From Streptomyces marianii (GTDB taxonomy: Bacteria; Actinomycetota; Actinomycetes; Streptomycetales; Streptomycetaceae), in contig NZ_VAWE01000001.1 of NCBI RefSeq assembly GCF_005795905.1, forward strand, positions 3,258,501 through 3,322,500: DNA of 64,000 nt, written 5' to 3'. Positions within the stretch are counted from its first letter, which is position 1. Every line of letters begins with the position of its first letter. The position numbers and the translations under genes were made by a program. This document shows positions 12,748 to 28,659 of the stretch, in pieces. A model generated the notes under the pieces. It saw only the letters and a list, made by a program, of their open reading frames with translations. It searched no databases and had not been told where the DNA came from.

Positions 12748-14334
12748 ATGACGAAGAGCACCTCGGACAGCACCGAAGCGGCCGCACCTCCGTTGCCCCC
12801 GCCCAAGGAACGCCGCAGGCTGCGCGAGGGCAAGGCACTGTCCGAGGAGCAGCTCGCGGAGGCCCTGGGCGTCACCGGAGCGACGATCAGGTCCTGGGAG
12901 ACGGGCCGCAGCGACCCTCGCGGCCGCAAGCGCGAGGCGTACGCCAGACTGCTCGCCGCCTACGAGGCCGAGCTCTCGGCACTCGGGTCCGCGCCCGGGG
13001 ACGAGGGAGGGGCCCGGCCGGCCGACGGGGCGGATCGGAGAGACGAGGCGAACCGGAGAGACGAGGCGGACCGGAGGGACGGGCAGCGGTCCGGAAGCCC
13101 TTCGTCCGCACCGAATCACCGGCCCGGTGAAGGCCCGCCCACCGGACGGACGGAACCGTCCGGGAACGCCCCTGCCGGGCCGGACGCCCGCGGCACCACC
13201 TCCGGGGACGCCACCGCCGCAAGCCCCGCCACCCGCACCTCCGGCGATCCCGCCGCCGAGCACCTGGCCGGGGTCCCCGCCACCGGGCCCCGGAAGGCGC
13301 CCGCCGTCCGGCCCGGGGACACACCCCCTCCCCTCGAACCCCCGCGCCCCTATCCCGCGACGACCCCGCCCCGGGCCCCGGTCGAGCGCACCGAAGCCCC
13401 GGCGGCGGCCCGGCACGCGACCGCCGCCGGACCGGCGGGCGCGACGGAGGCCGCGGCCGGCGGCCATCCCGCAGAACCCTGCGAGCGGCCGCCCGCCCGG
13501 GACGGGGCCGCGCCGCTCACCGCTGAGCAGGCGTTCGACGAGCTGTACGCCCGCGCCGCCCCCGGTCTCGTCCGCCAGACGCTGCTGCTCACCGGTCGGC
13601 AGTCGCTCTCGCGGGAAGCCGTCGAACGTGCCTTCCACCTGGCGTGGCAGCGCTGGCCCGAGGTCGCCGTGGACCGGGACCCCGCGGGCTGGGTGCGGGC
13701 GGCGGCGTACGAGTACGCCATGTCGCCCTGGCACCGCCTACGCCGCGCCCACCGCCGCCACGACCCGGTCTCGTCGGCCCGCCCCGCCTCGGTCGCATAC
13801 CCCGGCGGGCGCACGCTCCGCGAGGCGGTGCTCGGGCTGCCGCCGTCGTACCGCCGCGCGCTGCTCCTGTACGACGGTCTGGGCCTCGACCTCCCCGAGA
13901 CGGCCGCCGAGACCGAGGCGAGCACGCCCGCCGCCGCGAACCGGCTGCTGCACGCCCGCGCGGCGGTCGCCGAGCAGATCCCCGAGCTGGCCGAACCCGA
14001 GGCGCTCCAGCACGAGCTGGGCGATCTCGTGGCGAACCTCTCCACGCCCCGGATCGCCTCGGCCCGCGACGTGCGCGGCGGCAGCGAGCGCCGTGCCGAA
14101 CTCTGGACGCGCGCCGCGATCGGACTGACCGTCCTGATCCTCGGTGCCGCCGCCGTGACCACGGCCGTCACCGAGGACCACTACGAGCCGCCGCAGGCGC
14201 CCGGCGAGCGGGTCGGCGGGGTGCCTCCGCGGAGCGGTCCGGAGCCGTGGTCGAAGGAGGACTACCGCCTCCGCGTCCAGCTCCACTCCCACCCCGGCGC
14301 CGGGCCGGCGCGCCTCGTCCCCCTGGCCCGCTGA
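12748..14334 (+). CDS. XRE helix-turn-helix / sigma-factor-like / membrane fusion protein
   Basis: 528-residue protein with an unusual domain order. An XRE-type helix-turn-helix covers about residues 25-70 (LSEEQLAEALGVTGATIRSW). A Pro/Ala/Gly/Arg linker runs to about residue 255. Next is a region resembling an ECF sigma factor: a region-2-like part (LTAEQAFDELYARAAPGL, then WVRAAAYEYAMSPWHRLRR), then a region-4-like part (LREAVLGLPPSYRRALLLYDG). One membrane segment follows at about 457-475 (IGLTVLILGAAAVTTAV), with a short external tail. The start ATG 12748 follows GGAGAGGTCCTC. It may be a membrane-tethered transcription regulator. Whether the sigma-like part binds RNA polymerase cannot be judged. 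It is transcribed alone. Confidence 0.85.
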   Translation: MTKSTSDSTEAAAPPLPPPKERRRLREGKALSEEQLAEALGVTGATIRSWETGRSDPRGRKREAYARLLAAYEAELSALGSAPGDEGGARPADGADRRDEANRRDEADRRDGQRSGSPSSAPNHRPGEGPPTGRTEPSGNAPAGPDARGTTSGDATAASPATRTSGDPAAEHLAGVPATGPRKAPAVRPGDTPPPLEPPRPYPATTPPRAPVERTEAPAAARHATAAGPAGATEAAAGGHPAEPCERPPARDGAAPLTAEQAFDELYARAAPGLVRQTLLLTGRQSLSREAVERAFHLAWQRWPEVAVDRDPAGWVRAAAYEYAMSPWHRLRRAHRRHDPVSSARPASVAYPGGRTLREAVLGLPPSYRRALLLYDGLGLDLPETAAETEASTPAAANRLLHARAAVAEQIPELAEPEALQHELGDLVANLSTPRIASARDVRGGSERRAELWTRAAIGLTVLILGAAAVTTAVTEDHYEPPQAPGERVGGVPPRSGPEPWSKEDYRLRVQLHSHPGAGPARLVPLAR

Positions 14335-19131: not shown

Positions 19132-20322
19132 TCATATGCCGGCCGGCACCGGCAGCGGCCGCTTCTCGATCGCGGCCGCCATGACCTCGGGGAAGAGGTC
19201 GGGCGTGCACGCGAACGCCGGGGCACCCAGGGCCGCCAGAGCCGCCGCGTGGTCATGGTCGTACGCGGGTGCTCCCTCGTCGGAGAGGGCGAGCAGGGCG
19301 ACGAACTGCACCCCCGACGCCTTCATCGACGCCACTCGCTTCAGCATCTCGTCTCGGATACCGCCCTCGTAGAGATCGCTGATCAGCACGACGACGGTGT
19401 CGGCGGGGCGGGTTATCCGCGACTGGCAGTACGCCAGCGCGCGGTTGATGTCCGTACCGCCGCCGAGCCGGGTGCCGAACAGGACGTCCACCGGATCGTC
19501 CAGCTGGTCCGTCAGGTCGACGACCGCGGTGTCGAAGACGACGAGCCGGGTCGCGATCGACCGCATCGAGGCCAGCACCGCGCCGAAGACCGCGGCGTGG
19601 ACGACGGACGCCGCCATCGACCCGGACTGGTCGATGCACAGGACGACGTCCTTCTTCAGCGACCTCGAGACACGGCCGTGACCGATGAGCCGCTCGGGCA
19701 CCACCGTGCCGTGCTCTGGCAGATAGTTCGCGAGGTTCGCCCGGATCGTGCGGTCCCAGTCGATGTCCCGGTACCGCGGCCGGCTGGTGCGCGCACTGCG
19801 GTCGAGCGCGCCCGTGAGGGTCGCCCTGGTGCACGTCGCCAGCCGCTTCTCCAGGTCCTCGACTACCTTCCGGACGACCATGCGGGCGGTCTCCTTGGTC
19901 GTCTCCGGCATCGCCTTGTCGAGCGAGAGGAGCGTGCCGACGAGGTGGACGTCCGCCTCGACGGCCTCCAGCATCTCCGGCTCCAGCAGCAGCGTGGACA
20001 GTCCGAGCCGGTCGATGGCGTCCCGTTGCATGACCTGGACCACGGAGTTCGGAAAGTACGTACGGATGTCTCCGAGCCAGCGTGCGACGGAAGGCGCGGA
20101 GCCCTCCAGTCCGGCCGAACGCCTGTCGGCGCGCCGCTCCTTGCCGTCGCCGACTCCGTAGAGCGCGGACAGCGCACCGTCCATGGCAGCGTCCGTGCCC
20201 GTCAGGGCGCGGCCCGTGCCGTCCGCCGGTCCCCCGCCGAGCACCAGCCGCCAGCGCCGCAGCCTCTCGTCGGACGCCCTCCCCGCCACCGCGGAGTCCG
20301 CCGTCGCGTCCGTCGCGCTCAT
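19132..20322 (-). CDS. VWA-domain protein of the MoxR/DUF5682 module
   Basis: 396-residue cytosolic protein with a C-terminal von Willebrand factor A domain. The metal-site (MIDAS) motif DxSxS is present as DQSGS in VVLCIDQSGSMAASVV, followed by the expected Thr in RLGGGTDINRAL and the Asp in VVVLISDLYEGG. The N-terminal 180 residues are mostly helical and uncharacterised (CoxE/YehP-like arrangement). VWA proteins next to MoxR ATPases usually act with them in remodelling a target complex. The ATG 20322 overlaps the upstream TGA by four bases (ATGA), so it is coupled to the DUF5682 gene. It is the last gene of the three-gene minus-strand operon. Confidence 0.92.
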   Translation of the reverse strand: MSATDATADSAVAGRASDERLRRWRLVLGGGPADGTGRALTGTDAAMDGALSALYGVGDGKERRADRRSAGLEGSAPSVARWLGDIRTYFPNSVVQVMQRDAIDRLGLSTLLLEPEMLEAVEADVHLVGTLLSLDKAMPETTKETARMVVRKVVEDLEKRLATCTRATLTGALDRSARTSRPRYRDIDWDRTIRANLANYLPEHGTVVPERLIGHGRVSRSLKKDVVLCIDQSGSMAASVVHAAVFGAVLASMRSIATRLVVFDTAVVDLTDQLDDPVDVLFGTRLGGGTDINRALAYCQSRITRPADTVVVLISDLYEGGIRDEMLKRVASMKASGVQFVALLALSDEGAPAYDHDHAAALAALGAPAFACTPDLFPEVMAAAIEKRPLPVPAGI

Positions 20323-22706
20323 ACCCGCTCCCCCTCCAGAATCAGCCGCAGCACGGGCAGCACCGCGTCGGCGCGCCGCTCGTCGGCACCGGCCCCGAAC
20401 CCCGGCACCCCGGTTTCCGTGCGCACCGGACCCCCGGCGGTCCGCCCCCGCCGCGCCAGCTCGCCGAGAGTGCGGCGCACACCCGGCTCGTAGGCCGAGA
20501 ACGTGCGGCGCAGCAGCGGGAGAACGTCCGTGAAGGCGTCGGCCGGGACCGACGTCAGCCAGGCGTCGACGAGACCGAGGAGGCGCTCGTCGTGGACGAG
20601 GAGCATCCCGCCCCCCGACGCACCACCGACGAAGCCCTCGATCCAGGCGGCCGCTTCGGTGGGCGCGGTACCCCGCGACAGGGCGAGACCCATCAGCCGT
20701 GCCGCCTCCCCTTCGGCGAGACGGCCGTCGTCCAGCAGCAGCCGGGCCGCACGCCCCCGTATCAGCCCGGGCACGGTGTCCCGCAGGACGAGCCCGCGCA
20801 GCACGTCCACCCACCGGCCGCCCAGCTCCCGGGACTGCGGAAGCAGTCCGATCGCGGAGTGCACCGCGTCGAGTCGGCCGCGCATCCCGGCTGCGGCGTC
20901 GGCGTCGAGTCCGGTGCACGCGGGCGGCAGCACGACGCAGATGCGCTCGGCGAGTCCGGCTGCCACCCCGCCGAGTGCGGCGGTGTCCGTCGCACGCACG
21001 TCCCCGTACCGCAGCGAGCGGGCGAGCGCCGGCAGGGCGTCCGCGAGACGGCCCACGTCCGCGTCGAGCGCGGCCCGGTCCGCGAGTGCCCTCATCACCA
21101 CCGGCAGCGCGTCGGGGAGTTCGGCGAGAAGGCAGCGCTCGGCGAGGGACGTGACCTCGGCCAGTGCCGTCGTCGAGACCGCCTCCGACTCGGCCTTGGC
21201 GGTGGCCGCGGAGAGCACCGTGGTGCCCCAGACGCCCGCCTCCGCGACCCTGACATGCAGTTCGGGTTCCCAGCGCAGCCGCCAGGTCTCGCGAAAGGTG
21301 CCGGTCGAACCGCGGCCCGCCTCCGGGCGTCCCCAACCCACGCCGAGGAGCCGCAGCCGGTGCAGCAGCCGGCTGCGCGCCGCGTCGTTGTCCTTGCGGA
21401 GATCGAGCTCCAGCTCCCGCTCGGCCGGTTCCGGTCTGAGCCGCAGACCGCGCTGGAGGCGGGCCAGGTCGCGCTGCAGCGGCACCGCGGGCGCGGTGTC
21501 CGGGACCTCGCCGAGGACGTCCCCGACGACCAGCCTGTCCCGGACCAGCGCCAGGGGCACGTCCGAGCCGTCGCACATCACGGCCCGGACCGCGTCGGTC
21601 GTCTCGCCCAGTCCCGCCAGCGGACGGTCGCGCACGGCCGCGAGCGTCCCGGCGAGCCGGACCGCCTCGATGACATGGGCGGAGGACACCATCCGGCCCT
21701 CCTCCCTGAGCAGCCCGGCCACCTTGGTCATCCAGCGCTCGACAGGCCGGTCCGGGGCGCCGAAGAGATGGGCGTACCAGCCGGGCGATTCGACGCCCGC
21801 GCCGTACCCTCCCCCGGAGCCTCGCCCGGGGGGTGCCCCCAGGCGGGCGAGCCTGCGGTGGGTCCAGGGCACCCAGGTCGTCTCGGTCCTGACCTTCGGC
21901 AGGCCCTTCAGGAGGGCGCGGTCCGCGGTGGCGGTCGACCGGGCCGTCAGCGCCGGCACGTGCCAGGCACCGCAGACGACGGCCACCTCGTCCCCGAACT
22001 CCTTGCGCGCCGCCCGCAACCGGATCCGCATATGGGCCTCACGGAGGAGGTCGCGGGGGTGCCCCCCGTGTCCGTACCGCTCACGGAGGGCGGCCATGGC
22101 CTCGCCGATGGCGGCGAACGGCGCGAGAACGCCGTCCGGCGGACCCGCGCGGCCCCTCGGGTCCGGCTCACCGCGGTGCTCGACGACGTCCTCCCACCAG
22201 CGCTCCGGGTCGTCGTACCCGGCGGCTTCGGCGAGCGCTCCGATCGGGTCGACGCGGAGGGTCGGCTCCTCGCCGGCCACGACGTCCTCCTCGTCGCCCC
22301 ACGAGGGGTCGGCGGCCGCGGCCAGGGAGTACGCGGCGGGCAGGTCGATGAACCGCACGGTCGCGTCGTGCGCCAGCGCCCAGCGGATAGCCACCCACTC
22401 CGGGGAGAACTCGGCGAACGGCCAGAACGCGGCGCGTCCCGGATCGTCCACGGCGTGGGCGAGGAGGGCCACGGGCGGCACCATGGCCTCGTCGGCGGCG
22501 AGCGGCAGCAACGCGTCTCCTTCCGGAGGTCCTTCGATCAGCACGGCTCGCGGCTCCGCCGCGTCCAGCGCGGCCAGCACCGCCCTGGCGGACCCCGGGC
22601 CGTGGTGCCGCACGCCGAGCACCATCGGCCCCGCGCCGGGCCGCACCCGGTCCGGTCGGCGGGAGTCCGCGGCCGCCCGGGGCGGGTGCGCCGTCGGCGT
22701 CGTCAT
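20319..22706 (-). CDS. DUF5682 family protein
   Basis: About 795-residue protein of unknown biochemical function, recognisable as DUF5682 by its N-terminal block (LGVRHHGPGSARAVLAALDA, then LIEGPPEGDALLPLAA), the VRFIDLPAAY segment, and EVAVVCGAWHVPAL. The conserved His, Glu, Asp and Cys residues in the first 300 residues resemble an enzyme-like core (TraB/ChaN-like by pattern, inference only). The C-terminal two thirds are Leu/Ala/Arg-rich helices. It starts at ATG 22706 with GAGAGGTGA upstream; an earlier in-frame start would add only six residues. It overlaps the MoxR stop and the VWA start by four bases each. Confidence 0.88.
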   Translation of the reverse strand: MTTPTAHPPRAAADSRRPDRVRPGAGPMVLGVRHHGPGSARAVLAALDAAEPRAVLIEGPPEGDALLPLAADEAMVPPVALLAHAVDDPGRAAFWPFAEFSPEWVAIRWALAHDATVRFIDLPAAYSLAAAADPSWGDEEDVVAGEEPTLRVDPIGALAEAAGYDDPERWWEDVVEHRGEPDPRGRAGPPDGVLAPFAAIGEAMAALRERYGHGGHPRDLLREAHMRIRLRAARKEFGDEVAVVCGAWHVPALTARSTATADRALLKGLPKVRTETTWVPWTHRRLARLGAPPGRGSGGGYGAGVESPGWYAHLFGAPDRPVERWMTKVAGLLREEGRMVSSAHVIEAVRLAGTLAAVRDRPLAGLGETTDAVRAVMCDGSDVPLALVRDRLVVGDVLGEVPDTAPAVPLQRDLARLQRGLRLRPEPAERELELDLRKDNDAARSRLLHRLRLLGVGWGRPEAGRGSTGTFRETWRLRWEPELHVRVAEAGVWGTTVLSAATAKAESEAVSTTALAEVTSLAERCLLAELPDALPVVMRALADRAALDADVGRLADALPALARSLRYGDVRATDTAALGGVAAGLAERICVVLPPACTGLDADAAAGMRGRLDAVHSAIGLLPQSRELGGRWVDVLRGLVLRDTVPGLIRGRAARLLLDDGRLAEGEAARLMGLALSRGTAPTEAAAWIEGFVGGASGGGMLLVHDERLLGLVDAWLTSVPADAFTDVLPLLRRTFSAYEPGVRRTLGELARRGRTAGGPVRTETGVPGFGAGADERRADAVLPVLRLILEGERV

Positions 22707-23815
22707 GCGCTCACCTCTCGGCATGCCCGGTAGAAGTCCTTCCAGCCGTCCCGCTCGCGGACGACCGTCTCCAGGTACTCCTGCCAGACCGTCCGGTCCG
22801 CTGCCGGGTCGCGGACGACGGCCCCGAGTATCCCGGCGGCCACGTCACCGGGCCGCAGCACGCCGTCGCCGAAGTGTGCGGCCAGGGCCAGCCCGTTGGT
22901 GACGACGGAGATCGCCTCCGCGGTGGAGAGCGTCCCCGAGGGGGACTTGAGCTTGGTGCGCCCGTCCGCCGTGACGCCCTCCCGAAGTTCGCGGAAGACC
23001 GTGACGACCCGGCGGATCTCGTCGACTCCCTCGGGCGCCGCCGGCAGATCCAGCGAACGACCCATCTGGTCCACGCGCCGGGACACGATGTCGACCTCCG
23101 CCTCGGCGGTGGCGGGCAGCGGCAGGACCACGGTGTTGAACCGACGGCGCAGCGCGCTCGACAGGTCGTTGACGCCGCGGTCGCGGTCGTTGGCGGTGGC
23201 GACGAGGTTGAACCCGCGAACCGCCTGCACCTCCTCCCCCAGCTCCGGGATCGGAAGGGTCTTCTCCGACAGGATCGTGATGAGAGTGTCCTGCACGTCC
23301 GCGGGGATGCGGGTGAGCTCCTCGACCCGCGCGGTCATGCCGTCGGCCATCGCCCGCATCACCGGGCTGGGCACGAGGGCGTCGCGGCTCGGGCCGTGGG
23401 CGAGCAGCCGGGCGTAGTTCCACCCGTACCGGACCGCTTCCTCCGGCGTGCCGGCCGTGCCCTGCACCAGCAGCGTGGAGTCCCCGCTCACCGCCGCGGC
23501 CAGGTGCTCGGACACCCAGGTCTTGGCCGTGCCGGGCACACCGAGGAGGAGCAGCGCCCGGTCGGTGGCGAGCGTCGCGACGGCGACCTCGACGATCCGG
23601 CGCGGGCCCACGTACTTCGGGGTGATCACCGTGCCGTCGGACAGCGTGCCGCCGAGCAGATAGGTGGCCACGGCCCACGGCGAGAGCCGCCAGCGGGCCG
23701 GACGCGGCCGGTCGTCCGCCGCGGTCAGTGCCGCGAGCTCGTCGGCGAACGCGGCCTCGGCGTGCGGGCGCAGGGCCGAGGCGCCGGACGCCTCGGCGGT
23801 TTCGGGCACGGTCAT
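22703..23815 (-). CDS. MoxR-type AAA+ ATPase
   Basis: 370-residue AAA+ ATPase. Walker A is GVPGTAKT at residues 92-99. The Walker B region reads RVEELTRIP, with Glu-Glu where most MoxR proteins have Asp-Glu. Sensor 1 is LVATANDRDRG and the arginine-finger region is SSALRRRFNTVVLPLP. MoxR ATPases act with VWA partners as chaperone-like remodelling machines. Here the partner genes follow directly, each joined by an ATGA overlap. It is the first gene of the operon, after a 110-base gap behind the lipoprotein gene. The substrate of the machine is unknown. Confidence 0.94.
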   Translation of the reverse strand: MTVPETAEASGASALRPHAEAAFADELAALTAADDRPRPARWRLSPWAVATYLLGGTLSDGTVITPKYVGPRRIVEVAVATLATDRALLLLGVPGTAKTWVSEHLAAAVSGDSTLLVQGTAGTPEEAVRYGWNYARLLAHGPSRDALVPSPVMRAMADGMTARVEELTRIPADVQDTLITILSEKTLPIPELGEEVQAVRGFNLVATANDRDRGVNDLSSALRRRFNTVVLPLPATAEAEVDIVSRRVDQMGRSLDLPAAPEGVDEIRRVVTVFRELREGVTADGRTKLKSPSGTLSTAEAISVVTNGLALAAHFGDGVLRPGDVAAGILGAVVRDPAADRTVWQEYLETVVRERDGWKDFYRACREVSA

Positions 23816-23925
23816 GGATCCCCCTCCAGATCGTTCGACCGGGTGTGGGATCCACCGTGCACCACGCCACTGACATCGGCCCGTTTCCGCAGGCGGAGGC
23901 CGAAGTCAGCGGCTTGTGAGCGGTG

Positions 23926-24348
23926 TTACCGGGCGATCGGCGAGACCGCGACACAGCCGCCGGCGGTCGCGATCCCCTCGCCCTTCGACTCCTCGATGAC
24001 CTCGCCCTTGTACGTGATGGAGCAGGTGACCTCCGCGCCCGCGGCGTCCACCGCGACCGGCATGACGGCGGGCGGCATGACGCCCTTCAGCGTCACGGTC
24101 TTCCTCCACGGAAGCTCGGGCTTCCGAACGGTCTCGATCTCGGGCTCCATCGCCGTGCCACCGTCGGCGTGGTAGTCGATCGAGTCGACGGCCTTGCCCG
24201 TGACCTCGTACGTGACCTCGTACGTCTCGCTCACCGCCTTGTCGACCTGGTCGACGGCCTTTTCCGCGGCCCCGGAACAGGCGGTGAGGCCGACGGCGAG
24301 GCCGGCTGCGGCGAGTGCGGACACGGCGGTACGGACGCTTCTGTTCAT
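23926..24348 (-). CDS. MmpS-like lipoprotein
   Basis: 140-residue lipoprotein. The signal peptide ends in the lipobox LTAC with the lipidated Cys at residue 24. The mature part resembles the MmpS transport-accessory fold: YEVTYEVTGKA, a central ELPWRKTV, then AEVTCSITYKGEVI and a final GGC, giving two cysteines that could form a disulphide. The start ATG 24348 follows AGGGGGATCC. It lies at the head of the MoxR operon strand, divergent from the SWIM gene. Whether it belongs to the module or was placed there by chance cannot be told; no MmpL-type partner is nearby. Confidence 0.82.
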   Translation of the reverse strand: MNRSVRTAVSALAAAGLAVGLTACSGAAEKAVDQVDKAVSETYEVTYEVTGKAVDSIDYHADGGTAMEPEIETVRKPELPWRKTVTLKGVMPPAVMPVAVDAAGAEVTCSITYKGEVIEESKGEGIATAGGCVAVSPIAR

Positions 24349-24465
24349 GCGGATCCCCCTGGATCGTCGGCTGGCGATTCGCAGCGAATCGCAAGGAGAC
24401 GGCAAGGTCAAGTCGGCGTCGACGCCGTGAATCACCAGGTCAGGGCGACTGTCAGTGCCACCCCC

Positions 24466-24471
24466 TAGCGT
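24466..24471 (+). promoter_or_regulatory. Possible -10 element for a leaderless SWIM-gene transcript
   Basis: TAGCGT lies seven bases before the ATG at 24479 and there is no Shine-Dalgarno sequence. This is the spacing of a leaderless Streptomyces promoter, with transcription starting at the A of the start codon. No clear -35 element is seen. Confidence 0.45.
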
Positions 24472-24478
24472 CGTCCCC

Positions 24479-25828
24479 ATGAATCAGCAGGGGGTGCGCT
24501 GGACGGCGGAACAGGTGCTGGCCCTGGCTCCTGACGCCGCATCACGCAAGGCCGGCGGCGAACTCGGCGCGGCCGCACCGTGGTCCGGCACGGGCAGCAG
24601 CGGCACCGGTGCCGTCTGGGGTCTGTGCAAGGGCAGCGGCGGCAAGCCGTACCAGACGGTCGTGGACACGACCGGCCCGGCGTACAAGTGCAGCTGCCCG
24701 AGCCGTAAGTTCCCGTGCAAGCACGCGCTGGGGCTGCTGCTGCTCTGGGCCGGCGGCGCGAAAGCCGTCGGGGACGTCGAGGTGCCGGGCTGGGCCGGTG
24801 AGTGGCTCACGGACCGCCGCAGGCGGGCGGCGGCGGAGGAGGAGCGCGGTGCCGCGGAGGACCGGCCCGCGAGGGCGGCCGACCCGGAGGCCGCCAGACG
24901 CAGGGCGGAGCGCAGGGCTGCCCGGATCACCGCCGGCGCGACGGAGCTGGAGCAGCGGCTCGCGGACCTGCTGCGGGGCGGGCTGGCCTCCGCGGAGCGG
25001 CCCGGGTACGGCCTGTGGGAGGAGACCGCCGCACGCATGGTCGACGCCCAGGCCCCCGGACTGGCCGCGCGAGTGAGGGAATTGGGTGCCATACCCGGAT
25101 CCGGTCGGGGTTGGCCGGTGCGGTTGCTGGAGGAGGCCGCGCTGGTACACCTCCTCGACCGCGCATGGCTCGAGATGGACCGGCTTCCGGAGCCGCTCGC
25201 CGCCACCGTGCGCGCCCGGGTCGGCCTGACCGCGCCCGCGGAGGGCCCGGCGGTCCGGGACGGCTGGCTGGTCCTCGCGCAGTACGACTCCGCGGACGCC
25301 AGACTGACCACCCGCCGGGTCTGGCTGCACGGCCGGGAGACGGGACGCACGGCCCTGCTCCTCTCCTTCGGCGCGGCCGGGCGGGCACCGCAGCTCGCCC
25401 TGCCCCCGGGGCTCGTGATCGACGCCGAGATCGTGCCGCACGGAGGCGCGGGACAGCTGCGGGCCGAACTGCGCGAGCGGTTCGGTACCCCGGTGCCCCT
25501 CAAGGCACCACCACCGGGCGGCTCCGCGGCGGACGCACTCGCCGCGTACGGGCAGGCGCTGCGCGACGACCCCTGGCTGGACTCGTGGCCGGTCACTCTG
25601 GAGGACGTCGTGCCGGTGCCCTCGGACGACGGCTGGCAACTGGCCGACGCCGGAGGGCCGCAGGCACTGCCGCTCACACCGGCAGCACGTTCCCGGCCCG
25701 GGTTGTGGAGGCTCGTCGCGCTCTCCGGTGGCGGCCCGGTCACGGTCTTCGGCGAGTGCGGCCACCGCGGCTTCGCACCGCTGGCCGCCTGGTCCGGCGA
25801 CAGCCCCGAGACGGTCACCCTCACCTGA
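24479..25828 (+). CDS. SWIM zinc-finger protein
   Basis: 449-residue cytosolic protein. The SWIM finger C-x-C-x(6)-C-x-H is exact: Cys71, Cys73, Cys80 and His82 (YKCSCPSRKFPCKHALGLLL). It is preceded by a short domain with GLCKGSGGKPYQT. The rest is an uncharacterised Arg/Glu-rich helical and then mixed region. SWIM fingers bind DNA or protein, and the partner is unknown. The start MNQQGVRWTAEQV is chosen because the upstream eight codons lack character; translation is probably leaderless. A 19-base gap and GGAGG lead to the DUF5691 gene, so they form an operon, divergent from MoxR-DUF5682-VWA. Confidence 0.9.
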   Translation: MNQQGVRWTAEQVLALAPDAASRKAGGELGAAAPWSGTGSSGTGAVWGLCKGSGGKPYQTVVDTTGPAYKCSCPSRKFPCKHALGLLLLWAGGAKAVGDVEVPGWAGEWLTDRRRRAAAEEERGAAEDRPARAADPEAARRRAERRAARITAGATELEQRLADLLRGGLASAERPGYGLWEETAARMVDAQAPGLAARVRELGAIPGSGRGWPVRLLEEAALVHLLDRAWLEMDRLPEPLAATVRARVGLTAPAEGPAVRDGWLVLAQYDSADARLTTRRVWLHGRETGRTALLLSFGAAGRAPQLALPPGLVIDAEIVPHGGAGQLRAELRERFGTPVPLKAPPPGGSAADALAAYGQALRDDPWLDSWPVTLEDVVPVPSDDGWQLADAGGPQALPLTPAARSRPGLWRLVALSGGGPVTVFGECGHRGFAPLAAWSGDSPETVTLT

Positions 25829-25847
25829 AACGCCCCCGGAGGCCCCG

Positions 25848-27461
25848 ATGTCCAGCATCCGCACGAACGCCTGGGACGAACTCGTCACCTCCGCGCTGCT
25901 CGGCACCGACCGGCGCAGCCCGCCGGCCGACGTCCTGGCGCCCGGCCGCGAGGCGCCCGTCGCGCTGCTCGACGCCGCCGCGGTGCACACGGTACGACGG
26001 CGAGCCGGACTGCGGCCCGCTGCGGCCCGGCCCCGGCCGGAGCCCGCGCCGCCGGACGACCGGCGGGAGCTGCCCGAACCGGCCCGCCGGCGGCTGGCCG
26101 TACTGCTCGCGGACCGGGCCGCCCCCGCGGGCTCCGGAGGGCGGCGGGGGGCCGCGCCGGATCTGACGGAGCTCCTGCCGCAGTGGCTCGCCGCCGCCAA
26201 CGAGCGCGGCTACCGCGCCCCGGCGTCCGCGTTGCCCGCGCTGCTGGACGCCGCCCGCGCCCGCACCGATCTACGGGCCCCGGCGCTGCGCTTCGCCGGC
26301 CCGCGCGGTACCTGGCTCGCCGGCCTCAACCCCGAGTGGAAGTTCGCCCTCCGCGGCACGGCCGCCGGCACCGCCCCGCCGGCGCCGGGGGACGGCCGGG
26401 CCGTCCGCCGGCTGTGGGAGGAGGGCCTGTTCGCGGAACGGGTCTCGTTGCTCGGGTCGCTGCGCGCCCACGACCCGGCAGCCGCGGTGGCACTGCTGGC
26501 GGAGACCTGGCCCACCGAGCGCGCGGAGGACCGGCTGCTGTTCCTGGATTCGCTGCGCACCGGACTTTCCGGCGCGGACGAGCCCTTCCTGGACCTGGCC
26601 CTGTCCGACCGCAGCCGCAACGTCCGGGCGACGGCCGCCGAGCTGCTGTCCGCTCTGCCGGGTTCCGCGCTCGCCGGGCGGATGGCGGCGCGCGCGGCGT
26701 GCTGCGTCGGCCTGGACCGCACGGCGGCCGTCGCGGCGATCGCCGTCGAGGCCCCGCACGAGTGCGACGCCGGGATGGAGCGTGACGGGGTCGTCCCGAC
26801 CGCCCCCTCCGGACGCGGCGAACGGTCCTGGTGGCTCGGGCAGCTGGTGGAGGGGGCCCCGCTCGCCACCTGGCCGGAGCGGCTGGGCGGGCGGACGCCG
26901 GAGGAGATCGTCGCGCTGCCGGTCGCCGACGGCTGGGGCGACGAGCTGCACGCCGCCTGGTGCCGGGCCGCTGTGCGGCAACATGACGCGCAGTGGGCCC
27001 GGGCACTGCTGGGAGCACCCTCCCAGCCGCCCGCGACCGGCCCCGGGACGTCCTCGCTCGGCGAGCGGGCCAAGCTTCTCGCGACGCTCCGGGCGGAGGA
27101 GCGAGCCGGGTGGGTCGCCGGGTTCATCTCCGCGCACGGACTGTCCGAGGCGTTCCAGCTGCTCGGTGTCTGCGCGGTGCCGTGGGCGGAGCCGCTCGGC
27201 CGCGCCGTCGTCGACGCGCTGGACATCGCACGGGACGCGGGGAGCTACCCGTGGAGCTTCAGCGGCGTCATGGGCCTCGCCGAGCGCTGCCTCGATCCGG
27301 TCGAGGCGGGCCGGCTGGAACTCCTCACCGCCATCCCCGACGAGCCCGAAGGTGCGTCACCGGGGGCCGGCAGCTACTGGTCCGAAGCCTTCCGGCGACT
27401 GGTCTCGACGCTCAGGCTCCGCGCGGAGATGCACGCCGAGCTCTCGGCGCAGCCGCGCTGA
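25848..27461 (+). CDS. DUF5691 family protein
   Basis: 537-residue protein of unknown function, recognised as DUF5691 by its N-terminus (WDELVTSALLGTDRR), the ALRFAGPRGTWLAGLNPEW segment and its co-occurrence with a SWIM protein. Much of residues 170-480 is made of Leu/Ala-rich helices (LLAETWPTERAEDRLLFLD, then NVRATAAELLSALPG), consistent with a HEAT-like scaffold. The start ATG 25848 has GGAGG five bases upstream. It is the second gene of the plus-strand arm of the MoxR module. A structural or adaptor role is inference. Confidence 0.88.
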   Translation: MSSIRTNAWDELVTSALLGTDRRSPPADVLAPGREAPVALLDAAAVHTVRRRAGLRPAAARPRPEPAPPDDRRELPEPARRRLAVLLADRAAPAGSGGRRGAAPDLTELLPQWLAAANERGYRAPASALPALLDAARARTDLRAPALRFAGPRGTWLAGLNPEWKFALRGTAAGTAPPAPGDGRAVRRLWEEGLFAERVSLLGSLRAHDPAAAVALLAETWPTERAEDRLLFLDSLRTGLSGADEPFLDLALSDRSRNVRATAAELLSALPGSALAGRMAARAACCVGLDRTAAVAAIAVEAPHECDAGMERDGVVPTAPSGRGERSWWLGQLVEGAPLATWPERLGGRTPEEIVALPVADGWGDELHAAWCRAAVRQHDAQWARALLGAPSQPPATGPGTSSLGERAKLLATLRAEERAGWVAGFISAHGLSEAFQLLGVCAVPWAEPLGRAVVDALDIARDAGSYPWSFSGVMGLAERCLDPVEAGRLELLTAIPDEPEGASPGAGSYWSEAFRRLVSTLRLRAEMHAELSAQPR

Positions 27462-27842: not shown

Positions 27843-28250
27843 CTACGCCGCCTGGCGGACGTTGGCGTTGACCCAGTCGACGATCGACGCCGTGGTCGCT
27901 CCCGGAGTGAAGATCTCCGCGACGCCCTTCTCCTTGAGCGGAGGGATGTCCGCCTCGGGGATGATCCCGCCGCCGAAGACCTTGATGTCCTCCGCGTCCC
28001 GTTCCCTGAGCAGTTCGAGCACCTTCGCGAAGAGCGTGTTGTGCGCGCCGGAGAGGATGGAGAGGCCGATCGCGTCGGCGTCCTCCTGGATCGCGGTGTC
28101 GACGATCTGCTCGGGGGTCTGGTGCAGCCCGGTGTAGATGACCTCCATACCGGCGTCCCGCAGGGCTCGTGCGATCACCTTCGCGCCGCGATCGTGGCCG
28201 TCGAGACCCGGCTTGGCCACCACCACGCGGATCGGACCGGTCACACCCAT
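27843..28250 (-). CDS. B12-binding small subunit of an acyl-CoA mutase (isobutyryl- or methylmalonyl-CoA type)
   Basis: 135-residue stand-alone cobalamin-binding domain. The motif D-x-H-x-x-G is present as Asp17, His19 and Gly22 ([13 protein letters not shown]), then the SILSGAHN and FGGGIIP motifs that hold the nucleotide tail of B12. With a separate large subunit such a protein forms isobutyryl-CoA mutase (IcmB type) or a related mutase. No large subunit is encoded in this window, so the partner is elsewhere. The start ATG 28250 has GGAGG five bases upstream. Confidence 0.92.
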
Positions 28251-28659
28251 CACTGCCTCCACATACCGACTGTGCCGCCATGGGCACGGTGCCCTCATTG
28301 GCACCCAGCCGCGCCGATCGACGCGCTGTGTGCCGTCCTGACACGGATCCCGTGCCGCGCCCGTGCCGACGCGGGCCCGGGAGGTGAACGAACGTTATCT
28401 ACAGATCTACAGCATCCCGCAAGCAGTCGTTTCGCGGTGGACGGCGAGGGGGAAATCACACATGGGACATATTCGCTACGCGCCGTACCCGCCGGAGGAC
28501 CTCGGGCCGCGGTCGGGACGCCGCGAGGGAGCCGCTGTTCGGTGGCCGTGATCACCGTGCCGCCAGCCGCGCGGCCCGGCGGTCGGCGCCGTGGGCAGCC
28601 CCATGAGGGCACACGGGGGACGGAGCCGCGATCCCGTGCGCCAGTCGGGAGGTCGGGCC
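28251..28659. other. Divergent intergenic region between mutase subunit and lipase
   Basis: About 400 bases with an AT-richer centre (28385-28475) where promoters are likely; CTACAG occurs twice at 28398-28412. A short frame 28462-28551 (MGHIRYAPYPPEDLGPRSGR...) has GGGGGA upstream and could encode a 29-residue peptide, but nothing else supports it. Confidence 0.4.

Follow-up and report, generated by a model that had tools for sequence, protein, structure and literature searches.

A YehL-type MoxR-DUF5682-VWA module of Streptomyces marianii with SWIM and DUF5691 partners and DNA damage-type promoter motifs on both arms

Introduction

Pairs of a MoxR-type AAA+ ATPase and a partner protein with a von Willebrand factor A (VWA) domain, e.g., NorQ/NorD, RavA/ViaA, and CoxD/CoxE, combine the MoxR motifs with a metal ion-dependent adhesion site (MIDAS) in the VWA protein. 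NorQ has been proposed to twist NorD, and NorQD is needed for the insertion of iron into its client (PMC13036017). The MoxR-vWA ternary conflict systems (Kaur et al. 2020, PMC7159879) contain a large third component in addition to MoxR and VWA. The current study concerns a locus of Streptomyces marianii with the same MoxR motifs and a MIDAS-bearing VWA partner, which is located in a 64,000-nucleotide stretch of the genome (assembly GCF_005795905.1, contig NZ_VAWE01000001.1, positions 3,258,501 to 3,322,500), hereafter referred to as the window. Two divergent arms encode a MoxR ATPase, a DUF5682 protein, and a VWA protein on one strand and a SWIM zinc-finger protein and a DUF5691 protein on the other (Table 1). 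Compared with the three pairs, the module adds three proteins, one of them with a possible hydrolase domain. Our preferred explanation, which the evidence from sequence tips slightly beyond even, is that it represents a DNA damage-inducible YehL-type AAA+ remodeling machine with a hydrolase subunit.

The closest described relative is the yeh gene cluster of Escherichia coli K-12. The genes yehL-yehM-yehP have the same MoxR-DUF5682-VWA order, and the VWA protein of the window is 37% identical to YehP (E value of 3e-75) and distant from ViaA (2e-5). In a comparison with E. coli K-12 that covered YehL and RavA, the MoxR protein was 40% identical to YehL (5.7e-76) and matched RavA at an E value of 0.57. 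The adjoining yehQ gene likewise encodes a SWIM finger protein, but the SWIM protein of the window shares the finger alone, since an hhalign comparison with YehQ aligned 33 columns over the finger and nothing beyond, with a probability of 1.5%. The E. coli genes follow yehF (WGR) and yehH/yehI (DUF4132), whereas a scan of 16 frames of the window in and near the locus detected neither WGR nor DUF4132. Conversely, DUF5691 was not found in E. coli, which served as a search control, and the PafBC-type promoter motifs of the window are a further difference from yehLMPQ. Judged by these comparisons, the module is a variant of the yehLMPQ kind; the kind is known, albeit uncharacterized, and SWIM/DUF5691 are its variant part. 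The initial annotation, made from the letters of the window, had called the locus the strongest candidate for an undescribed system, which was overstated because E. coli yehLMPQ has the same MoxR-DUF5682-VWA set together with a SWIM protein, and YehL counts among the named subfamilies of MoxR ATPases (PMC3893208). A function for yehLMPQ or for the DUF5682 and DUF5691 families was not found in one open-access library, with subscription papers outside the scope.

Co-occurrence of the two arms

A set of 198 genomes of the phylum was searched with DUF5682, VWA, the SWIM protein, and DUF5691; homologues were taken from genome searches within the phylum, with E. coli K-12 and Deinobacterium (a control match) as representatives from outside, and the counts take no account of relatedness among genomes. 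DUF5682 was detected in 17/198 genomes and VWA in the same 17, and in 16 of these the SWIM protein adjoins DUF5682. The seventeenth genome with a SWIM match (G074) has no DUF5682, and the match is weak and extends over 69 residues. DUF5691 was found in 19/198 genomes, i.e., full-length or nearly so in 11, as a short N-terminal match of about 150 to 210 positions in 5 genomes of a single family, and below the cut-off in 3 genomes that lack DUF5682. A DUF5682 genome that lacks both SWIM and DUF5691 (G124) has a DUF4132 gene instead. Among the Streptomycetaceae, represented by the top 80 among 575 confirmed relatives (78 titled Streptomyces, two from neighboring genera), all five genes are present in divergent orientation in 69 loci, and in 10 others the contig stops on the flank where a gene is missing; in locus L121, tblastn found no VWA in the 1.7 kb between DUF5682 and the contig end.

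Outside the Streptomycetaceae, nine five-gene loci (L085 to L092 and L191) carry the genes on one strand in the order SWIM-DUF5691-MoxR-DUF5682-VWA, with SWIM and DUF5691 fused in a single open frame in L085 and L191 (Pfam was run on L085). None of nine flanking or inserted window genes that were tested recurs in these loci. At the level of sequence, the five genes of both arms are hence one unit, and the proposal of the initial annotation that both arms form one module has held up, since independent occurrence of the arms in most genomes was not seen (16/17 and 69/80).

Three further arrangements combine MoxR, VWA, and DUF5682, in addition to the SWIM/DUF5691/MoxR/DUF5682/VWA module (type A). 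Type B consists of WGR and/or DUF4132 followed by MoxR, DUF5682, VWA, and a YehQ-like gene (L099, L194, and the E. coli locus L003); in type C, MoxR precedes a DUF5682-VWA fusion (L094 to L098, L192, and L193), and both loci tested for it (L096 and L098) have DUF4132 upstream; and type D is composed of VWA, MoxR, and a partial DUF5682 (L100 to L102, L195, and L196). DUF4132 was found in the variants L093, L099, L194, L096, and L098. The fusion in type C argues for DUF5682 and VWA being direct partners. The genome of S. marianii carries types A and D, and its second, divergent DUF5682 locus (VWA-MoxR-DUF5682; G000:C1:7677914-7679662, L002, L102) has a PafBC-type site upstream.

Within one actinobacterial family (L088 to L092), a shortened DUF5691, of which the first 150 to 210 of 491 positions match, lies between SWIM and MoxR. 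In the same family, the VWA match has one in-frame TGA in G031:C1:3499773-3500900 and in G113:C1:3283526-3284605.

Promoter motifs on both arms

PafBC acts through the RecA-NDp motif (PMC6789036), for which the promoter consensus tTGTCRgtg-8nt-TannnT (PMC5656591) and a Streptomyces example (PMC5087735) have been reported. The divergent region of the Streptomycetaceae contains a conserved inverted repeat, CCACTGACAA...TTGTCAGTGG, whose ten-mers occur in 62/73 and 60/73 regions, and each half, read outward, corresponds to the PafBC/RecA-NDp promoter core. When the length limit was relaxed, which extended the set of 73 to 77 regions, the core was directed toward SWIM in 75/77, toward MoxR in 76/77, and toward both in 75/77. 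The motif on the SWIM side is complete in 75/77 regions when these are extended by 60 bases into the SWIM frame and in 45/77 when the regions are clipped at the domain start. A total of 200 base shuffles of the 77-region set yielded zero motif matches, and in the window two sites match with no more than one mismatch, versus 0.04 expected. The site of the SWIM arm is exact in core and -10, with a c in place of the weakly conserved first t, and ends 7 bases before the ATG, i.e., in a leaderless layout; the MoxR-arm site fits in core and spacing. Control of the arms by LexA was rejected, with GAACN4GTTC in 0/73 Streptomycetaceae regions.

With the -10 relaxed to YA...T and the motif required upstream on the same strand, type B operons of actinobacteria have it in 2/2 cases, type C in 6/7, and type D in 4/5. 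The type B site lies 55 bases before the DUF4132 gene, and that of type C about 6 kb ahead of MoxR, just upstream of a short gene (DUF4132 in both loci tested).

Several observations weigh against control of the module by DNA damage. The -10 on the MoxR side reads CA...T in 76/77 regions and never TA...T. None of the eight non-Streptomycetaceae five-gene loci tested (L191, the ninth, was left out of this count) carries an exact motif up to 300 bases from SWIM; the best match there has 1 mismatch in L085, 2 in L086, L087, L088, and L091, and at least 3 in L089, L090, and L092. The related operons L192, L196, and L093 lack the motif upstream, and in the E. coli yeh region the LexA box with one mismatch matches 8 times versus 7.55 expected. 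Judging from the motifs, the case for a damage-type regulation of the module is strong for the Streptomycetaceae and weak elsewhere, because the matches in type A loci outside this family are inexact.

The motif in the rest of the genome

The exact motif (with R) is present in 38 copies in the 9.01-Mb genome, and the reversed pattern in none. Of these copies, 30 became loci, and in 15 of the 30 a coding-like frame, picked by length and base composition, starts 6 to 8 bases past the -10. Ten of the 23 motif-linked proteins that were scanned function in repair, replication, or as nucleases; the motif precedes recA, dnaX, and genes for a RadA-like ATPase, an AlkZ-like protein, an O6-methylguanine methyltransferase, and a UvrB-type protein, as well as genes for a DnaE-type polymerase, a PD-(D/E)XK nuclease, an RNase_T exonuclease, and an HNH nuclease. 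As a point against the damage reading, the other 13 are not repair genes; they include transporters, a TetR regulator, an arginine deiminase, a formyltransferase, a lipoprotein, and proteins that matched nothing. Candidates for pafBC are two WYL genes in tandem (C1:6974587 and C1:6975549), downstream of a Pup ligase gene in a pafA-pafB-pafC-like arrangement. The module thus shares motif and spacing with the PafBC (RecA-NDp) regulon and its genome a pafBC-like pair, whereas the -10 on the MoxR side deviates.

In the pafBC deletion mutant of Mycobacterium smegmatis, proteins named MoxR1 and MoxR2 are reported as lower, together with a von Willebrand factor protein (PMC5656591). In Deinococcus, DUF4132 and WGR proteins rise upon depletion of the damage-response repressor DdrO (PMC8533742). 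The latter two are the partner families of the type B DUF5682 operons. A paper linking the module to PafBC did not surface in one open-access library, with subscription journals and supplements outside the scope.

DUF5682 as a probable hydrolase

The AlphaFold2 model of DUF5682 (mean predicted local distance difference test [pLDDT] score of 84.1) consists of a confident alpha/beta N-terminal domain and a helical solenoid. The N-terminal domain weakly resembles the TIKI/TraB/ChaN hydrolases, and on this basis DUF5682 is a probable hydrolase. An hhalign comparison with a TraB profile, for which E. coli YbaP and five plasmid proteins were aligned, gave a score of 31.8, which was reached by 0/200 column shuffles (maximum of 19.3) and by none of the four other module families (14.5 to 20.1), and the GxxH, E, and GxxH motifs of DUF5682 align with TraB. 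Pfam matched ChaN in 3/24 and TraB in 2/24 DUF5682 members, with a marginal best E value of about 0.007, and these are the only families that marginally match more than one member. In a fold search of BFVD, a TraB protein had a probability of 0.98, the highest among the 50 matches listed, with an E value of 0.12. The residues H40, H41, E64, and H255 are invariant in both DUF5682 alignments, as are E109, D127, R228, and E229.

These signals are countered by the low hhalign probability of 19% and by a match of the unrelated CBM46 family to one DUF5682 member at 0.0046, which is as good as those of ChaN and TraB. The TIKI superfamily site is defined as 2His/2Glu (PMC6254334), and the second catalytic Glu could not be singled out among the invariant residues. 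Furthermore, no TIKI structure was among the PDB fold matches listed, which are helical-repeat proteins and reflect the solenoid; since they fall mostly on residues 446 to 798, the N-terminal domain was barely probed. A PDB sequence search with this domain returned nothing credible (best E value of 0.52), a phmmer search of PDB with DUF5682 and DUF5691 gave no match (best E value of about 0.95), and NCBIfam has no family for the DUF5682, SWIM, and DUF5691 proteins. Relatives of TraB were absent from 31 genomes of relatives and those of ChaN from 60 genomes of the phylum. Within the TIKI/TraB/ChaN/erythromycin-esterase superfamily, DUF5682 would differ by its fusion to a solenoid and its genetic tie to an AAA+ pair.

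The partner proteins

The catalytic motifs of the MoxR protein, which we take to be Walker A, Walker B, sensor 1, and the arginine-finger position, are invariant in 13/13 alignment rows (Walker A, E-E, the sensor 1 Asn, and two Arg), with a Walker B of the form E-E (RxEExTR) where D-E is usual; a match to the bpMoxR profile remained below its cut-off. The MIDAS of the VWA protein (D-x-S-x-S and a late Asp) is present in 38/38 aligned sequences, with an exchange of Thr for Asn in 4, and the VWA domain covers residues 155 to 374 of 390 in the scanned form, with no further family in the protein. In the SWIM protein, the finger residues C71, C73, C80, and H82 are invariant in 13/13 rows. DUF5691 has a HEAT/ARM-like predicted fold (AlphaFold2, mean pLDDT of 83.7). 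The roles that the initial annotation had assigned fare unevenly: MoxR and VWA as a remodeler would be compatible with the intact ATPase and MIDAS residues and DUF5691 as a scaffold with its predicted fold, while DUF5682 as an effector may find support in kind in the weak TIKI/TraB-like signal.

Proposed mechanism and alternatives

As a damage-inducible remodeling machine with a hydrolase subunit, the module could work as follows. Single-stranded DNA arising from damage would activate PafBC, and both arms would fire together. With the DUF5691 solenoid holding it, the SWIM protein might then dock a nucleic acid or nucleoprotein target, and the MIDAS of the VWA protein might grip either the docked target or DUF5682. 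A MoxR hexamer would twist the VWA protein, by analogy with the action proposed for NorQ on NorD, and the catalytic domain of DUF5682 would hydrolyze a bond, in a protein or a modification, in the remodeled target.

A bolder version, which is possible but rather doubtful, regards this ATP-driven hydrolase as an unrecognized arm of the PafBC response, in which MoxR-VWA would feed a nucleoprotein tethered by SWIM/DUF5691 to the TIKI-type domain of DUF5682 or open it for this domain, e.g., to remove a damage-induced modification or proteins trapped on DNA. Every DUF5682-MoxR-VWA variant, yehLMPQ among them, would then be a version of a single machine for genotoxic stress whose target-recognition parts are interchangeable. 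New in the current study are the damage-type promoter motif on both arms and the weakly TIKI/TraB/ChaN-like N-terminal domain of DUF5682. For families to which the sources searched assign no function, the former suggests a stimulus (DNA damage) and a regulator (PafBC) that can be tested, and the latter an activity that can be tested at specific residues. If true, MoxR-VWA chaperones would be tied to DNA repair, and an AAA+-coupled hydrolase would join the damage response of actinobacteria.

An unlikely alternative is a chaperone for enzyme maturation of the NorQD or CoxDE kind, in which MoxR and VWA would open a client enzyme for a cofactor or metal, with DUF5682 as the client or a passive, noncatalytic adaptor and SWIM and DUF5691 as assembly factors. 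All MoxR and VWA motifs are kept, the VWA protein belongs to the CoxE family of Pfam, and the requirement of NorQD for iron insertion (PMC13036017) provides a model, but no metalloenzyme gene was seen to accompany the module, with none of the nine window genes tested recurring in the non-Streptomycetaceae five-gene loci, and the invariant His, Glu, Asp, and Arg of DUF5682 across divergent types speak against a passive role.

We regard as quite improbable a role in conflict or phage defense akin to the MoxR-vWA ternary systems, in which the SWIM protein would sense foreign nucleic acid and MoxR-VWA would free DUF5682 as a hydrolytic effector. The sporadic distribution beyond Streptomyces (24/396 genomes overall, 12 of those Streptomyces) would suit a defense system. 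Against it, the matches include 12 genomes of the genus, S. marianii itself among them, and none of the genus is among the match-free genomes listed. Several variants do occur side by side in one genome, whereas the module itself is a single conserved locus, with B12-binding and M23 peptidase neighbors in 62/62 long loci. Unlike in the ternary systems, with their effector domain C-terminal to the vWA, no variable effector is fused to the VWA domain, which ends at residue 374 of 390, and the locus is conserved in Streptomyces. Their third-component classes comprise VMAP, iSTAND, FtsH, and beta-propeller; Pfam gives DUF5682 alone in the third component of the window. The five proteins had no match in PADLOC-DB at an E value of 0.01, and instead of the phage or metal phenotypes envisaged by the initial annotation, the promoter motif points to DNA damage, even though damage promoters might respond to infection too.

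The idea that the arms are two unrelated operons, merely adjacent in Streptomyces, is very close to being refuted by the co-occurrence and locus counts: the divergence of the arms in Streptomyces, the lipoprotein gene that splits them in this window, the lack of DUF5691 in E. coli, and the MoxR arm without SWIM and DUF5691 in G124 would fit it, but co-directional five-gene runs with different flanks elsewhere, the fusions, and the same promoter motif on both arms do not.

Locus layout and neighboring genes

The five-gene module reported by the initial annotation is present, as all five matches in a Pfam scan of the window frames exceed the curated cut-offs (Table 1). Its description of the coupling requires correction: ATGA junctions do occur in the MoxR arm, but there are two of them (22706-22703 and 20322-20319), which join the three genes for MoxR, DUF5682, and VWA rather than MoxR with three coupled genes, and coupling is not complete, since SWIM and DUF5691 are 19 bases apart. 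Its gene list also omitted a small lipoprotein-like gene, which in S. marianii lies between the back-to-back promoter motifs of the arms. Because a relative is present in 6 of the 80 named loci, this gene is read as an insertion outside the module.

Table 1. Features of the locus in the window of S. marianii
Feature	Position	Strand	Details
VWA protein (VWA_CoxE, YehP-like)	19132..20322	-	396 aa, MIDAS intact; Pfam PF05762 6.7e-60
DUF5682 protein (YehM family)	20319..22706	-	795 aa; Pfam PF18934 1.3e-288
MoxR AAA+ ATPase, YehL type	22703..23815	-	370 aa; Pfam AAA_5 2e-36
PafBC/RecA-NDp-type promoter motif, MoxR arm	23854..23875	-	TGTCAGTG-N8-CACGGT; -10 departs from TAnnnT
Small lipoprotein-like gene, between arms	~23926..24348	-	PF05423 3.5e-5 (longer reading frame)
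PafBC/RecA-NDp-type promoter motif, SWIM arm	24450..24471	+	TGTCAGTG-N8-TAGCGT
SWIM zinc-finger protein	24479..25828	+	449 aa, CxC...CxH complete; Pfam PF04434 6.9e-6
DUF5691 protein	25848..27461	+	537 aa, HEAT/ARM-like predicted solenoid; Pfam PF18944 4.7e-173

Beside DUF5691, a protein with the C-terminal (B12-binding) domain of methylmalonyl-CoA mutase is encoded at 27843-28304 (-) of the window. It was rejected as a functional partner, with presence in 62/62 long Streptomycetaceae loci and in 0 of the other actinobacterial loci tested. At 12748-14334 (+), a protein with an N-terminal helix-turn-helix (weak match to the telomere protein Tap) and a SigE-like sigma region 4 is encoded, a relative of which lies near the module in 55/62 long Streptomycetaceae loci.

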